A stretch of 64,000 bases of DNA from Anaerococcus nagyae (lineage in GTDB: Bacteria > Bacillota > Clostridia > Tissierellales > Peptoniphilaceae): the NCBI RefSeq assembly GCF_017874535.1, contig NZ_JAGGLS010000008.1, positions 1-64,000 on the forward strand, given 5' to 3'. Of the stretch, positions 20,635-36,206 are shown in pieces. Each line of letters begins with the position of its first letter. The stretch's first letter is position 1. Both the position numbers and the translations under genes were made by a program. Under the pieces are notes generated by a model that saw nothing but the letters and a program-made list of their open reading frames with translations, did no database searches and was not told where the DNA came from.

Positions 20635-20684
20635 TTTCCCTCTTTTATTTTTTATGATCTCATATATATGTTATCATATAATTA

Positions 20685-20780
20685 TCAGAGTAGATAGGAA
20701 GCATTAAGTGTTAAGAAATGGGTTGTTGTTCTTAAACGAAGCATATCGCTATGATTTTCTGTCGCAACCGCTGCCTCTGA
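20685..20780 (+). promoter_or_regulatory. tetrahydrofolate (THF) riboswitch 1
   Basis: The outer helix pairs TCAGAG (20685-20690) with CTCTGA (20775-20780). Between them are the conserved blocks GAGTAGAT, GCATTAAGTG, AATGGGTTG, ACGAAGC and GCAACCGC of the folT-type THF aptamer. The helix ends 4 nt before an AAGGGG ribosome site for the TTG-started folT, so folate binding can hide that site. It is nearly identical to riboswitch 2. Confidence 0.92.
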
Positions 20781-21489: not shown

Positions 21490-21561
21490 ATTTTTTATTA
21501 TATAAACCTATTTTATAGACTATTCTTTTTAATATTACATATATATGTTATCATGTAATCA

Positions 21562-21657
21562 TCAGAGTAGATAGAAAGCATTAAGTGTTAAGAAATGGGT
21601 TGTTGTTCTTAAACGAAGCATATCGCTATGATTTTCTATCGCAACCGCTGCCTCTGA
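21562..21657 (+). promoter_or_regulatory. tetrahydrofolate (THF) riboswitch 2
   Basis: TCAGAG (21562-21567) and CTCTGA (21652-21657) close an aptamer with the same conserved blocks as riboswitch 1; only a few bases differ. An AAGGAGG ribosome site follows at 21661-21667. The upstream segment with TATATATGTTATCAT is also shared, so the whole promoter-riboswitch unit was duplicated. Confidence 0.92.
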
Positions 21658-31960: not shown

Positions 31961-33289
31961 ATGCTAAATGAAAAGTTAGATAAATATTTAAAAAAAGATT
32001 ATTACCCCTTTCACATGCCTGGAGCAAAAAGGAGCTCAATATTACGAAATGATTTACCTTATAAAAGGGATATTACTGAAATAGATGGCTTTGATAATTT
32101 AAATAATCCAAAAGAAATTCTACATGATTTAGAATTAAGTCTATCTAATATTTATAATGTAAATGAATCTATAATATCAACAAATGGTTCAACTTGTGGT
32201 ATATTGGCTAGCATTCGCTCATTAACTTACAAAAATAAAAAAGTACTAATACAGAGAAGTTGCCATAAAGCTGTATATAATGCAATTGAAGTATTTAATC
32301 TTGACGTTGATTATATAGATATTGTCACAAATGAAATAAACGCTGTAATTAATATAGACTATGCAGGCTTAGAAAAAAAGTTAAATAATAATTGTTATGC
32401 TGCTGTTTTAATAACCTCACCGTCTTATGAAGGTTACGTTTTAGATTTAGATAAAATCTATGAATGGTGCAAGAAAAACAATACTCCATTAGTAGTGGAC
32501 TTAGCTCATGGCTCACATTTTATTTTAGAAGATTTTTATAGTACTGCTTTTGATATAGCTATTACATCATTTCACAAGAATTTATCGGGTTTAACTCCCT
32601 CAGCTGGTGTACTAATAAATAATAAGTCTTTAGCAAAAGAAATAAGACGAAATATGGCTATATTTCAAACATCCTCTCCATCTTATGTAATAATGCAATC
32701 TATAGATGAAATGATAGAAAATTTTGATAAATTCTCAATTTTGTATAAAGATTTAAATAAAAATTTAAATGACTTATATTCATTAGAATTAAAAAATTTA
32801 AAATTAATAGATAATATAATTAAAGATAAATCCAAAATTTTAATTTCAACAAAAAATACAAATATTAACGGAATAATCTTACAAAATCTTCTTAGAAAAG
32901 AAAAAATTGAAATAGAAATGGCTTATCCAAATTATTGCCTACTAATTTCAACAATCTTTGATAGTAAAAAAGGATTTGAAAGATTAAAAGAAGCTCTAAT
33001 TAGCATTGACAAGAGTATATACAAAATAGAAAATGATGTAAAGTTTTCTTATACAATTCCTAAGCAAGCTATTAAAATATCGGAGGCCATACTAATGGAT
33101 AGTAAAAATGTTACCCTATCCAATAGCTTAGATAAGATATCAGCCTGTTTTGTATATGCCTATCCACCTGGCATACCTTTAATTACTCCAGGCGAATTTA
33201 TAGACAATAGAATAATAGATAACATTAATCAACTTCAATCTAGTAATGTTTCTTTAAACATTGATAAATATATAAGAGTAATAAATTGA
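31961..33289 (+). CDS. Orn/Lys/Arg decarboxylase-like PLP enzyme (short form)
   Basis: A 442-residue fold-type I PLP enzyme related to the YaaO/SpeA short decarboxylases. It opens FHMPGAKRS; the pyridoxal region includes STNGSTCGILASIRS, VVDLAHGSHF and the lysine motif TSFHKNLSGLTPSAG (~204). The C-terminal region with AYPPGIPLITPGE is characteristic. It should decarboxylate a basic amino acid; which one cannot be told. TAGGAG precedes ATG 31961. The scfA promoter overlaps its stop codon. Confidence 0.85.
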   Translation: MLNEKLDKYLKKDYYPFHMPGAKRSSILRNDLPYKRDITEIDGFDNLNNPKEILHDLELSLSNIYNVNESIISTNGSTCGILASIRSLTYKNKKVLIQRSCHKAVYNAIEVFNLDVDYIDIVTNEINAVINIDYAGLEKKLNNNCYAAVLITSPSYEGYVLDLDKIYEWCKKNNTPLVVDLAHGSHFILEDFYSTAFDIAITSFHKNLSGLTPSAGVLINNKSLAKEIRRNMAIFQTSSPSYVIMQSIDEMIENFDKFSILYKDLNKNLNDLYSLELKNLKLIDNIIKDKSKILISTKNTNINGIILQNLLRKEKIEIEMAYPNYCLLISTIFDSKKGFERLKEALISIDKSIYKIENDVKFSYTIPKQAIKISEAILMDSKNVTLSNSLDKISACFVYAYPPGIPLITPGEFIDNRIIDNINQLQSSNVSLNIDKYIRVIN

Positions 33290-33314
33290 CAAATAAATCT
33301 ATAACTGTTAAGAT
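33286..33314 (+). promoter_or_regulatory. promoter of the SCIFF genes
   Basis: TTGACA (33286-33291) and TAAGAT (33309-33314) with 17-bp spacing. The -35 includes the TGA stop codon of the upstream decarboxylase gene, so scfA can be transcribed independently. Confidence 0.65.
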
Positions 33315-33362
33315 TAAAATGTATATTAGATACATACATATTTATATATGAGGAGAATATAT

Positions 33363-33512
33363 ATGAAAAGAATTGTAACACTTAATACAAGAAATCTCCA
33401 CAAAAGTAAAAAAGACGGCGGATGCGGTGAATGCCAAACATCTTGTCAATCAGCTTGTAAAACAAGTTGTGGAGTAGCTAACCAAGAATGTGTTAGCAAA
33501 AAGAATAAATAA
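33363..33512 (+). CDS. scfA: SCIFF ranthipeptide precursor
   Basis: A 49-residue ribosomal peptide. The leader MKRIVTLNTRNLHKSKK is followed by a core with six cysteines at 21, 24, 28, 32, 36 and 43 in GGCGECQTSC and ACKTSC segments, the near-invariant six-cysteines-in-forty-five pattern of Clostridia. The maturase encoded next makes sulfur-to-gamma-carbon thioether links at the cysteines. GAGGAG lies 7 nt before ATG 33363. A terminator follows directly, so only readthrough or a second promoter expresses the maturase, giving excess precursor. Confidence 0.96.
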   Translation: MKRIVTLNTRNLHKSKKDGGCGECQTSCQSACKTSCGVANQECVSKKNK

Positions 33513-33533
33513 GGGTTTAACCCTTATTTTTTT
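33511..33533 (+). terminator. terminator/attenuator after scfA
   Basis: AAGGGTTTAACCCTT (33511-33525) followed by an ATTTTTTTT run; the stem begins inside the scfA stop codon. Confidence 0.85.
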
Positions 33534-33589
33534 CTTTGATATTTCCTAGTGTTTTACTATAATTTTAATATAAATTTCAAGGAGAAAAT

Positions 33590-34975
33590 ATGATACATCA
33601 ATATAAAGCCAAAGGCTTTAATATAGTTTTAGATACCTATAGTGGATCAGTCCATGCTGTGGATGATATCACTTATGAAATAATATCTTTATATGAAGAT
33701 CATGCTAAAGAGGACATAAAAAATAAACTTACTACATATAATCTTACAGATGATCAATTTGGTGAAGCTTATAAAGAAGTTTGTGATTTGGTAAATGAAG
33801 GAATGCTATTTACAAGTGATAATTTTGCTGATTTATCGATAGACGTTGTAAATAGACCTACAAATGTAAAAGCTATTTGCTTAAATGTAGCTCATACCTG
33901 TAATTTATCTTGTGAATACTGCTTTGCAAAGGGAGGTAAATACCACGGTCCAGATGCTATAATGACAACTGAAACTGCAAAAAAAGCCATAGATTTTTTA
34001 ATTGAAAATTCTGGTAATCACTATAATTTAGACGTAGACTTCTTTGGTGGAGAGCCTCTTATGAATTGGGATGTAGTTAAAGAAACTGTCGACTATGCTA
34101 GAAATTTAGAAGAAAAGTATAATAAACATTTCAATTTCACTCTTACAACAAATGGTATGCTCCTGGATGATGATAAAATAGAATATTTAAATGAAAATAT
34201 GAAAAATGTAGTTCTATCTCTAGATGGTAGGCGTGAAATCCATGATGAATTTAGAAAAACTATTGGAGGAAAAGGCTCTTTTGATACTGTAGTACCAAAG
34301 TTTCAAAACTTTGTAAGTAAACGTGGCGATAAAGAATACTATATGAGAGGAACCTATACTGCAAATAATTTAGATTTTACAAAAGATGTTAAAACTTATT
34401 TAGACTTAGGATTTAAGAGAACTTCACTAGAACCAGTAGTAGGTAATTCTAAATCAGATTATGCTCTAAAAGAAGAAGATTTACCTGTTCTTTTTGAAGA
34501 ATATGAAAAGTTAGCCGATATGATGATAGATGCTATAGATAATAATAACAAATTTATTTTCTACCATTATATGATAGATTTAGAAAACGGCCCTTGTGCT
34601 CACAAAAGAATCTCTGGTTGCGGATCAGGAACTGAATATATGGCTATTACACCAAGTGGAGAACTCTATCCTTGCCATCAGTTTGTAGGTAATGATGACT
34701 TTATTATTGGAGATATAAACCAAGGAATAATTAGAGATGATATTATAGAAGATTTTAAGAAATGTAATTGTTACTCTAAAGAAGAATGTAAATCTTGTTG
34801 GGCAAATATGTATTGTTCAGGAGGATGTGCTGCAAATAATTACAATGCTAATGGTGATATAAATGAAACTCATGATTATTCTTGTAAGTTATTTAAAAAA
34901 AGAATAGAAATGGCAATAGCTATTAAAATTTATGAGTACATGAAAGAATCTGAGAAAAAAGAATCTATAGCCTAA
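33590..34975 (+). CDS. scfB: SCIFF radical SAM maturase
   Basis: A 461-residue radical SAM/SPASM enzyme that forms thioether bridges on the adjacent SCIFF peptide. Residues 1-75 form the RiPP-recognition-like N-terminus. The cluster motif CNLSCEYC has Cys 104, 108 and 111. GGEPLMNW follows, and the C-terminal SPASM cysteines appear as CGSG, YPCHQF, CNCYSKEECKSC and MYCSGGCAANNY for two auxiliary clusters. AAGGAG precedes ATG 33590. No dedicated transporter or protease gene is adjacent. Confidence 0.96.
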   Translation: MIHQYKAKGFNIVLDTYSGSVHAVDDITYEIISLYEDHAKEDIKNKLTTYNLTDDQFGEAYKEVCDLVNEGMLFTSDNFADLSIDVVNRPTNVKAICLNVAHTCNLSCEYCFAKGGKYHGPDAIMTTETAKKAIDFLIENSGNHYNLDVDFFGGEPLMNWDVVKETVDYARNLEEKYNKHFNFTLTTNGMLLDDDKIEYLNENMKNVVLSLDGRREIHDEFRKTIGGKGSFDTVVPKFQNFVSKRGDKEYYMRGTYTANNLDFTKDVKTYLDLGFKRTSLEPVVGNSKSDYALKEEDLPVLFEEYEKLADMMIDAIDNNNKFIFYHYMIDLENGPCAHKRISGCGSGTEYMAITPSGELYPCHQFVGNDDFIIGDINQGIIRDDIIEDFKKCNCYSKEECKSCWANMYCSGGCAANNYNANGDINETHDYSCKLFKKRIEMAIAIKIYEYMKESEKKESIA

Positions 34976-35010
34976 AAATTTTTATATAAAATTTTTTATA
35001 TAAAATTAAG

Positions 35011-35056
35011 ATACCTAATAACATTTATGTGTTAAATATTTGTTATTGGGTATTTT
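35011..35056 (+). terminator. terminator after scfB
   Basis: ATACCTAATAAC (35011-35022) pairs with GTTATTGGGTAT (35042-35053) across a 19-nt loop, with one G-T pair, followed by TTTTATT. Confidence 0.65.
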
Positions 35057-35085
35057 TATTATATAAGAAAAAATGGAGGAATACA

Positions 35086-35583
35086 ATGACTGACGAAAAA
35101 AGAACATTCGAAGCTGGTAATGATACAAATAAAAATACAGATAATTTAAAAAAAGATTTAGATAAAAATGGAGAAAAGATAAAGGAATCTTTTGAAAATA
35201 CTTCTGAAAATGTAAAAGAAGGATTTAAAGAAACAAATGAACACATAAAAGATGACTTTAATAATGTAAAGTCTGATGTAAAAAATGATTTTAATGATGC
35301 TAAAGATAAAACCAAAGAAAAAGTAGATACTTCAGATTATAAGAGAGTCAATACAGAAGGAACAACAACTCATACTGATAATAAGCGAGATATTAGTGAA
35401 ACAAAGACTAACAATGTAGAAGAAAAGAAGCCATTCTATTCTAACTGGTGGTTCTGGGTTTTAATAGTTCTTCTTCTTTGGGCTTTATGGAAATTCGCCT
35501 TTAACAATGACAAAACTGAAACTACAGATACAACACCAAATACTACAACTACAGAAACAGTAGAACCAAAGGATAAAAACTAA
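35086..35583 (+). CDS. coiled-coil protein with a C-terminal membrane helix, unknown
   Basis: A 165-residue protein with a long charged amphipathic helix region (~15-85) built from loose 11-residue-like repeats around VKEGFKETNEHIKDDFNNVK. A Thr/Asn linker follows, then a single membrane helix WWFWVLIVLLLWALWKFAF (~127-146) and a threonine-rich tail. The repeats resemble apolipoprotein/YtxH-like stress proteins. ATG 35086 is chosen for GGAGG 5 nt upstream; a TTG 19 codons earlier overlaps the terminator. Its stop overlaps the convergent comF stop. I cannot name its function. Confidence 0.7.
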   Translation: MTDEKRTFEAGNDTNKNTDNLKKDLDKNGEKIKESFENTSENVKEGFKETNEHIKDDFNNVKSDVKNDFNDAKDKTKEKVDTSDYKRVNTEGTTTHTDNKRDISETKTNNVEEKKPFYSNWWFWVLIVLLLWALWKFAFNNDKTETTDTTPNTTTTETVEPKDKN

Positions 35584-36206
35584 GAAACCCTATGTTCAGA
35601 GGTGATAGATAAAACTACCACCTCTTTTACATTGGATTTTTCAAGACACTTAATTATTTCCAAAGCAGTAAATCCAGTAGTAATTAAATCATCTATCAAT
35701 AGAACTCTTTTTTCAGTTAAATCTTTATTGCAAACAAATGCCCCATTAAGATTACTAGCTCTATCCTCTTTTCCTAATTTATGCTGAGCTTTAGTATTTT
35801 TTATTTTATAAAAACCTTTAAGGTGCTCACAATTAGTTTTATCAATAAATAAATCAGTAATCATTTTTATATGGTCAAATCCCCTATAATTTATAGTTTT
35901 TTGGCTACTAGGAGATGATAAAATATAATCACATAAGAATAAATTATTCACCATCCCATAATCATATAAAATACTAGCGAATACTTTAGATAAAGAGGTA
36001 TTCCTATTAAATTTATAATCTCCTATCATTTTTTTCATATAGGCATTATAAAAATATACAGCATGTGCATCATATGATTCAATCTTAAATTTATTAGCTA
36101 CATAATCTAACTTTTTAAGACAATTCTTACATAGATAATGAGCAGCTATTTCTTCTTCTTTGCACATATAACACTTATTTTTATCAAGGAATAATAAATT
36201 AATCAC
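35580..36206 (-). CDS. comF: ComF family phosphoribosyltransferase-like protein
   Basis: A 208-residue protein with an N-terminal zinc finger (CYMC near residue 12, then CKNC) and a C-terminal PRPP-binding motif RVLLIDDLITTGFTALE (~167-183). ComF proteins assist uptake of single-stranded DNA in natural competence and interact with helicase and DprA. It overlaps recD2 by 8 bp and ends the long minus-strand operon, its stop overlapping the convergent gene's stop by 3 bp. Confidence 0.87.
   Translation of the reverse strand: MINLLFLDKNKCYMCKEEEIAAHYLCKNCLKKLDYVANKFKIESYDAHAVYFYNAYMKKMIGDYKFNRNTSLSKVFASILYDYGMVNNLFLCDYILSSPSSQKTINYRGFDHIKMITDLFIDKTNCEHLKGFYKIKNTKAQHKLGKEDRASNLNGAFVCNKDLTEKRVLLIDDLITTGFTALEIIKCLEKSNVKEVVVLSITSEHRVS

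Follow-up and report, generated by a model that had tools for sequence, protein, structure and literature searches.

A Gly37-type SCIFF cassette in Anaerococcus nagyae with a terminator between precursor and maturase genes and a likely third gene of the OKR_DC family

SCIFF ranthipeptide systems are very widespread in Clostridia, and their role is poorly known. We analyzed the SCIFF cassette in a 64,000-nucleotide (nt) stretch of Anaerococcus nagyae DNA (RefSeq assembly GCF_017874535.1, contig NZ_JAGGLS010000008.1, positions 1 to 64,000 of the forward strand; hereafter the window), where scfA, encoding a small precursor peptide, is followed by scfB, encoding its maturase. Two features that a preliminary description of this DNA missed are likely what is new here: a recurrent partner gene for an enzyme of the OKR_DC family, and a sub-lineage of precursors that carry glycine rather than threonine at residue 37 (Gly37 and Thr37 types). 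As a whole, the data are probably best explained by a Gly37-lineage SCIFF cassette in which a terminator limits scfB expression and OKR_DC is a third member. Comparison across genomes makes a three-gene system of scfA, scfB and OKR_DC likely. The genes are as follows.

31961 to 33289, + strand: OKR_DC, an Orn/Lys/Arg-decarboxylase-family pyridoxal phosphate (PLP) enzyme of 442 amino acids (aa), whose gene repeatedly accompanies Gly37-type SCIFF cassettes.
33363 to 33512, + strand: scfA, SCIFF precursor, 49 aa (TIGR03973, PF13165).
33590 to 34975, + strand: scfB, radical S-adenosylmethionine (SAM)/SPASM SCIFF maturase, 461 aa (TIGR03974, 5wgg).

Both SCIFF genes exceed curated cut-offs, which bears out the earlier assignment of a six-cysteine precursor and a radical SAM/SPASM maturase. 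ScfA, with cysteines at positions 21, 24, 28, 32, 36 and 43, scores 83.2 bits against TIGR03973 (cut-off 50) and 80.4 bits against PF13165. ScfB scores 728 bits against TIGR03974 (cut-off 425), contains PF04055 and PF13186, and has the CteB chain 5wgg as its closest solved structure (523 bits over residues 1-449). Each gene is present in a single copy in the genome. On the basis of these gene families, ScfA is predicted to be a ranthipeptide carrying a radical non-alpha thioether. The OKR_DC protein matches PF01276 (84.8 bits) and PF03711 (30 bits), its closest solved chain is 2x3l, and its SxHK PLP-lysine motif is invariant in seven of seven representatives.

The position of OKR_DC differs sharply between the two SCIFF types. 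Within the family (Peptoniphilaceae), it lies upstream on the same strand at 45 of 47 Gly37-type loci in the fetched flank, being the immediately upstream open reading frame (ORF) in 44, and convergently downstream at one more. Thr37-type loci of the family have OKR_DC at only 9 of 70, all downstream, and are instead preceded by yajC (56/70) and tgt (54/70). Fisher's test on this difference in linkage gives p = 3e-22, uncorrected for relatedness. Downstream neighbors were readable at 87 of 116 family loci; representatives were used to check the labels yajC, secD, recJ and thymidylate kinase, and tgt was assigned by family model. At Thr37-type loci with short flanks, the positions of scfA and OKR_DC were compared by hand, and the two genes lie on other contigs or far apart. 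We also collected named Gly37 loci of other groups, which were chosen as the best matches to window ScfB and thus make a sample rich in Gly37. OKR_DC is present at 47 of these 56 (15 upstream, 32 downstream). At class loci, where flanks are short and the downstream side is mostly beyond reach, it lies upstream of 3 of 10 Gly37 and 0 of 55 Thr37 cassettes.

One alternative, rather doubtful in our judgment, is that this is a plain two-gene SCIFF pair and OKR_DC is a bystander, its synteny inherited in one lineage and its co-occurrence with scfA a matter of general gene content. Against a bystander role, OKR_DC is found both before and after scfAB but always on its strand in the named Gly37 loci that contain the gene (47 of 47), and at three loci (L082, L097, L165) it directly adjoins scfB or overlaps its end. 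An OKR_DC tree, moreover, divides the scfAB-linked genes among at least three deep groups (20 downstream Gly37 rows, 7 downstream Thr37 rows and 39 other Gly37 rows), a tree that is midpoint-rooted and holds many rows of odd composition and three unlinked rows (of five fetched; the motif filter missed two). Such a distribution suggests that OKR_DC became linked to scfAB repeatedly. Where OKR_DC is upstream, the gap to scfA is below 120 nt in 60 of 64 cases and 836 to 1783 nt in the other four. The ORFs beyond OKR_DC look different in the six loci that were drawn out, with a few of them run through Pfam.

OKR_DC also tracks scfA in presence and absence. Counting OKR_DC matches over cut-off, the two genes are jointly present or jointly absent in 127 of 130 family genomes: 12 are without OKR_DC, 13 are without scfA, and 11 are common to both sets. 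The three mismatched genomes (G063, G068, G097) are 73-81% complete. Among 108 good-quality genomes, eight lack scfA, and these same eight are the ones lacking OKR_DC over cut-off (one of them, G057, has a 21-bit match). All eight keep the control genes tgt and apt, and the failure of these controls to track the loss pattern is a further argument against a bystander. On a single-gene tgt tree of 24 rows, the losses fall in at least three places. In the class sample, 318 genomes have both genes, 4 have scfA alone, 27 have OKR_DC alone and 42 have neither; OKR_DC is thus found in 318 of 322 scfA-bearing and 27 of 69 scfA-less genomes (p = 2e-33, again uncorrected for relatedness). The class lists were compared by hand at E 0.001, with totals that agree, and some of the 27 OKR_DC-only and 42 neither-gene genomes are incomplete or small.

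Several observations weigh against a third-gene role for OKR_DC. Nine of the 56 named Gly37 loci are without it in the flank, and OKR_DC persists in 27 class genomes that have no scfA. Thr37-type family genomes mostly have the gene away from scfAB; in five examined, it sits beside thymidylate kinase in three and elsewhere in two, and so it also exists independently of scfAB. A single good-quality loss lineage in the family (G059) has Thr37-type relatives next to it on the tree, in which OKR_DC and scfA are unlinked; the other family co-losses, which are most of them, could be one deletion of adjacent genes. The thymidylate kinase neighborhood and the possible single deletions would both suit a bystander, as does the description of SCIFF as a two-gene cluster in the consulted portion of a 2024 paper (PMC11063209). 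In a literature search that did not include the primary SCIFF papers and drew on partial texts, no report of OKR_DC as a third SCIFF gene was found. Likewise, the portions consulted of PMC11063209, PMC9231227 and PMC8102284, the last examined for other terms, contain no scfAB-decarboxylase linkage.

If OKR_DC is indeed the third member of the pathway, the PLP enzyme may act on a free amino acid or on a peptide residue, both of which are candidate substrates. A place in the spermidine pathway was considered and is not supported. Spermidine synthase speE (TIGR00417) has no match in the window genome, which thus does not display the canonical polyamine pathway, and exceeds its cut-off in one of 130 family genomes, where a second OKR_DC is close by on the same contig. 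The family's single OKR_DC accordingly does not look like a member of a standard spermidine route.

Two short features concern the residue-37 type of the window cassette.

33456 to 33473, + strand: scfA codons for Cys32, Lys33, Thr34, Ser35, Cys36 and Gly37; Thr34 is invariant in SCIFF, and residue 37 is Gly, not Thr.
33896 to 33898, + strand: codon for ScfB Thr103, which directly precedes the opening Cys of the CxxxCxxC radical SAM motif; Thr37-type maturases have Asp here.

We compared 200 distinct SCIFF domains, drawn from 267 loci. Thr34 occurs in all 200, Cys32 in 198 and Thr26 in 188, and residue 37 is split between Thr (109) and Gly (91). Cysteine-core positions besides 37 are mostly nearly frozen. 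Gly37 is found in window ScfA and in 31 of 31 Anaerococcus. A Cys32-Thr37 cross-link has been reported in vitro for Tte1186a and CteA, and a conflicting Cys32-Thr34 cross-link has been reported on co-expression in E. coli (PMC8326336 and PMC8172795, in the portions consulted). Because its residue 37 is Gly, the window peptide cannot form a Cys32-Thr37 bridge. Cys32 and Thr34 are both present, and we infer a radical thioether between them. It is likely that the cross-link of the Gly37 sub-lineage has to differ from the one reported in vitro. Gly37 peptides offer a clean natural test of the conflict between the two published bonds. The ScfA core can also be written as two C-x-T-S-C units (C24-QTS-C28 and C32-KTS-C36), and a further Cys-Thr link, between residues 24 and 26, would merit a search.

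The two residue-37 types correspond to two maturase lineages. In a tree of 171 ScfB sequences, the partners of Thr37 and Gly37 precursors are split by one branch with support of 100, and the residue-37 state changes once, compared to 57 changes with shuffled labels; repeated independent switches of residue 37 were rejected on this basis. An IQ-TREE analysis of 80 rows, six of them outgroup, likewise recovers Gly37 as one clade (SH-aLRT 100) and places Thr37 as the older state, with long outgroup branches and an unsure root. At ScfB residue 103, 87 of 88 Thr37-type rows have Asp (the motif was not found in the remaining row) and 80 of 83 Gly37-type rows have Thr. Given the single switch, this difference is a lineage mark, and it is possibly functional too. 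The split is one event, and the fact that ScfB residue 103 follows it is therefore no independent sign of contact, which also counts against our reading.

Residue 37 could itself be a neutral lineage marker, such that Thr37-type and Gly37-type maturases give the same product; we consider the case for this evenly balanced. Its single change on the ScfB tree and the invariance of Thr34 in both types are consistent with neutrality, whereas the near-frozen state of most other cysteine-core positions and the clean difference at ScfB residue 103, beside the radical SAM motif, argue against it. We offer a broader proposal more tentatively still, namely that SCIFF comprises two systems. One would be a derived Gly37 three-gene OKR_DC pathway in which Cys32 is most likely paired with Thr34. 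The other would be an ancestral Thr37 lineage tied to tgt-yajC and secD/recJ, which may need an unlinked OKR_DC. The Thr37 lineage is that of CteA and Tte1186a.

Some relatives carry two SCIFF domains per precursor. At L189 and L190/L202 (G103, G100), both domains have Cys32 and Cys36 replaced by Ser, and the adjacent ScfB looks intact at about 740 bits. With the known donor cysteine lost in these precursors, another bond must form, or none. Double-SCIFF precursors that keep all cysteines occur at L151 (G067), L105, L108, L111, L112 and L114, which belong to another genus of the family and to Lachnospiraceae metagenome-assembled genomes (MAGs).

The expression signals of the cassette begin within the end of the OKR_DC gene.

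33286 to 33314, + strand: scfA promoter, with TTGACA at 33286-33291, a 17-bp spacer and an extended -10, TGtTAAGAT (-10 at 33309-33314).

In our preferred reading, scfA would be transcribed from this strong extended -10 promoter of its own, which overlaps the end of the OKR_DC gene. The extended -10 is TGTTAAGAT. As had been pointed out earlier, the -35 makes use of the upstream stop codon: TGA at 33287-33289 lies inside TTGACA. An exact TTGACA-N14-TGnTAnnAT occurs once in the window, compared to an average of 0.05 when the sequence was shuffled 20 times within 1-kb chunks; at two or fewer mismatches, the same pattern is not commoner than chance (17 versus 15.6). All 31 Anaerococcus loci carry TTGAC(A/T)-17-TGnTAnnAT at scfA, and in each the preceding gene matches window OKR_DC. 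Of these loci, 20 place the OKR_DC stop codon within the -35, 8 within the spacer or extended -10, and 3 within the -10. We rejected a conserved device that places the stop codon in the -35, since the stop lies elsewhere in 11 of 31. The promoter is kept while the overlapping stop codon shifts, and the constraint thus acts on the promoter. A regulon marked by the CTAGTNNTTTANTATAAT motif was also rejected (64 genome hits, versus 49 for the reversed pattern).

Transcription from this promoter would meet a hairpin at the end of scfA.

33507 to 33537, + strand: intrinsic-terminator-like hairpin and T-run; the hairpin (33507-33529) encloses the scfA stop codon.

The hairpin consists of ten pairs, three of them G-C, and is followed by TTTTCTTT, the stem-loop and T-run of an intrinsic terminator. 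The scfA TAA (33510-33512) lies inside its 5' arm. The preliminary description placed a strong hairpin at the scfA stop codon. The terminator and its overlap with the stop codon are real, but "strong" was too generous for a structure that folds at -9.7 kcal/mol and is equaled by 1 of 200 shuffles; the stem is weak and the T-run is good.

That a terminator separates precursor and maturase, also proposed earlier, holds across relatives at a rate far above chance. By a fixed definition, a hairpin with T-run is found between scfA and scfB at 90 of 116 family loci, compared to 2.2% of dinucleotide shuffles. It is present in 30 of 31 Anaerococcus, and 28 of 35 genera have one or more members with it; in two wider samples it is found at 57 of 84 loci (shuffles 3.5%) and 21 of 31 loci (shuffles 4.6%). 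The wider counts use 84 of 86 and 31 of 39 loci, the rest being without ScfA or ScfB in the stretch. The family count covers 116 of 117 scfA loci, leaving out G122, where scfB is 316 kb off, and it enters G063, with a mis-called scfB start, as terminator-less. By eye, several of the 26 family misses have a bulged or long-loop hairpin. Among the exceptions are loci with almost no gap between the two genes, in genera g5 (6 bp) and g34 (1 bp), in four of five loci of g31 (14-24 bp) and in several class loci. The loci are related and the counts therefore not independent, a caveat for our reading. The recurrence of the terminator is good evidence of selection for a transcription stop after scfA. 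Hairpin sequences are unrelated between genera and vary even among groups of Anaerococcus. A terminator that stays in the same place while its sequence changes by genus suggests that expression of precursor above enzyme is under selection. Early in the scfB coding region, at 33604-33620 of the window, lies another short hairpin that has a T-rich tail. In our literature search, no paper contained both SCIFF and "terminator" as whole words.

The hairpin might alternatively serve mainly as a 3'-end stabilizer of a short, abundant scfA mRNA, or as an RNase processing site, with lower scfB expression as a side effect. Its location at or shortly past the stop codon and its variable sequence between genera would be compatible with such a role. 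We consider it unlikely given the T-run, which follows the hairpin as in intrinsic terminators at the 90 of 116 loci, though the scan itself required it.

How scfB is expressed past the terminator bears on what the terminator does.

33536 to 33563, + strand: candidate scfB promoter TTGATA-16-TATAAT, 11 of 12 matches, between the terminator and the scfB start.

We propose that the weak-stem terminator would stop most transcripts past scfA and that scfB would be made at a lower level by read-through, from a second promoter past the terminator, or both. Built-in attenuation with a high precursor-to-enzyme ratio, as first suggested for this cassette, is plausible. Alternatively, with a chance we put close to even, scfA and scfB are two separate transcription units in the window strain: the terminator would merely end scfA, and scfB would have its own promoter, with no read-through attenuation. 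TTGATA-16-TATAAT is consistent with separate units. None of 100 shuffled versions of the intergenic region equals it, and it is the best of 24 promoter-like matches in 32000-36000, a number itself at chance level (shuffle mean 26.2). At about this position, 25 of 31 congeners have an A[CG]TATA element, compared to 1.9 expected, but this motif was picked after viewing the alignment. Only G011 and the window genome itself have a two-hexamer score above that of 95% of shuffles; other congeners are mostly at shuffle level, and a genus-wide scfB promoter was rejected as unproven. In other genera, the distance from T-run to scfB start is 2 to 29 nt at 50 of 60 terminator-bearing loci, which makes read-through the simpler reading there; the corresponding distance in Anaerococcus is 24 to 67 nt. 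In the window strain, a promoter of its own for scfB may lead to the same precursor-to-enzyme ratio by another route. By either route, the layout of the cassette would favor precursor over enzyme. ScfB would then bind the ScfA leader and place a radical thioether at Cys32-Thr34.

The SCIFF genes travel together. scfB is present in 31 of 31 Anaerococcus genomes, and the named records closest to the window maturase come from Anaerococcus species. Within the family, scfA is present in 117 of 130 genomes and scfB over cut-off in 116; the sole genome that differs is G119, in which scfB is in two pieces (L042). A two-piece scfB is also seen at L145 (G029), and damage or sequencing error is possible in both. 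The class sample has scfA in 322 of 391 genomes. G122 (L180) is the only one of 117 scfA-bearing family genomes with a separated pair, scfA lying about 316 kb from scfB (G122:C1:1828269-1829594). Judging by record titles, two Gly37-type scfAB loci with an OKR_DC neighbor lie outside Clostridia: L084 and L093, from Trichococcus palustris (Carnobacteriaceae) and a MAG titled Tenericutes.

In the window, the cassette is flanked by apt and the OKR_DC-family gene on one side and by a small coiled-coil-like protein gene and comF on the other. As noted previously, no exporter or protease is directly adjacent; the exporter screen covered the cassette surroundings and did not extend to the rest of the window. 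Rfam identifies no known RNA at the cassette locus. Its four matches in the window are RNase P, one tRNA and two tetrahydrofolate (THF) riboswitches, the latter at 20684-20775 and 21561-21652 on the + strand, about 0.9 kb apart.

Disruption of the SCIFF pair alters sporulation and agr expression in C. beijerinckii, according to the consulted portion of a review (PMC8102284). These effects would fit a signaling role. A gene that tracks scfAB in position and in presence or absence provides a concrete handle on the pathway.

The window cassette belongs with the SCIFF ScfA-ScfB systems (TIGR03973-TIGR03974), of the class ranthipeptides, with which it shares scores over the cut-offs, six cysteines, adjacency of the two genes and single copy. 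It differs in its Gly37, its derived-clade maturase and its OKR_DC neighbor; most Thr37-type family loci have tgt-yajC and secD/recJ neighbors in place of OKR_DC. The OKR_DC protein resembles the YaaO-like OKR_DC family, which has the solved member 2x3l, in its short architecture and PLP lysine motif. Unlike YaaO-like genes, the window gene is linked to scfAB and not to a thymidylate kinase gene. Partial terminators between precursor and modification genes of ribosomally synthesized and post-translationally modified peptides (RiPPs) are found in lantibiotic operons, and the hairpin and T-run between precursor and enzyme genes are alike in the two cases; our literature searches turned up no usable earlier example. 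Here, unlike in lantibiotic operons, no secretion or immunity gene directly follows, and the terminator occupies the same place in most loci of one bacterial family while its hairpin sequence changes. The characterized SCIFF systems closest to the window cassette are CteA/CteB (thermocellin), which provides the closest solved structure in CteB, and Tte1186a/Tte1186. Window ScfA shares Cys32 and Thr34 with their precursors and differs in being without Thr37, such that the reported Cys32-Thr37 bond is impossible and Cys32-Thr34 is possible.

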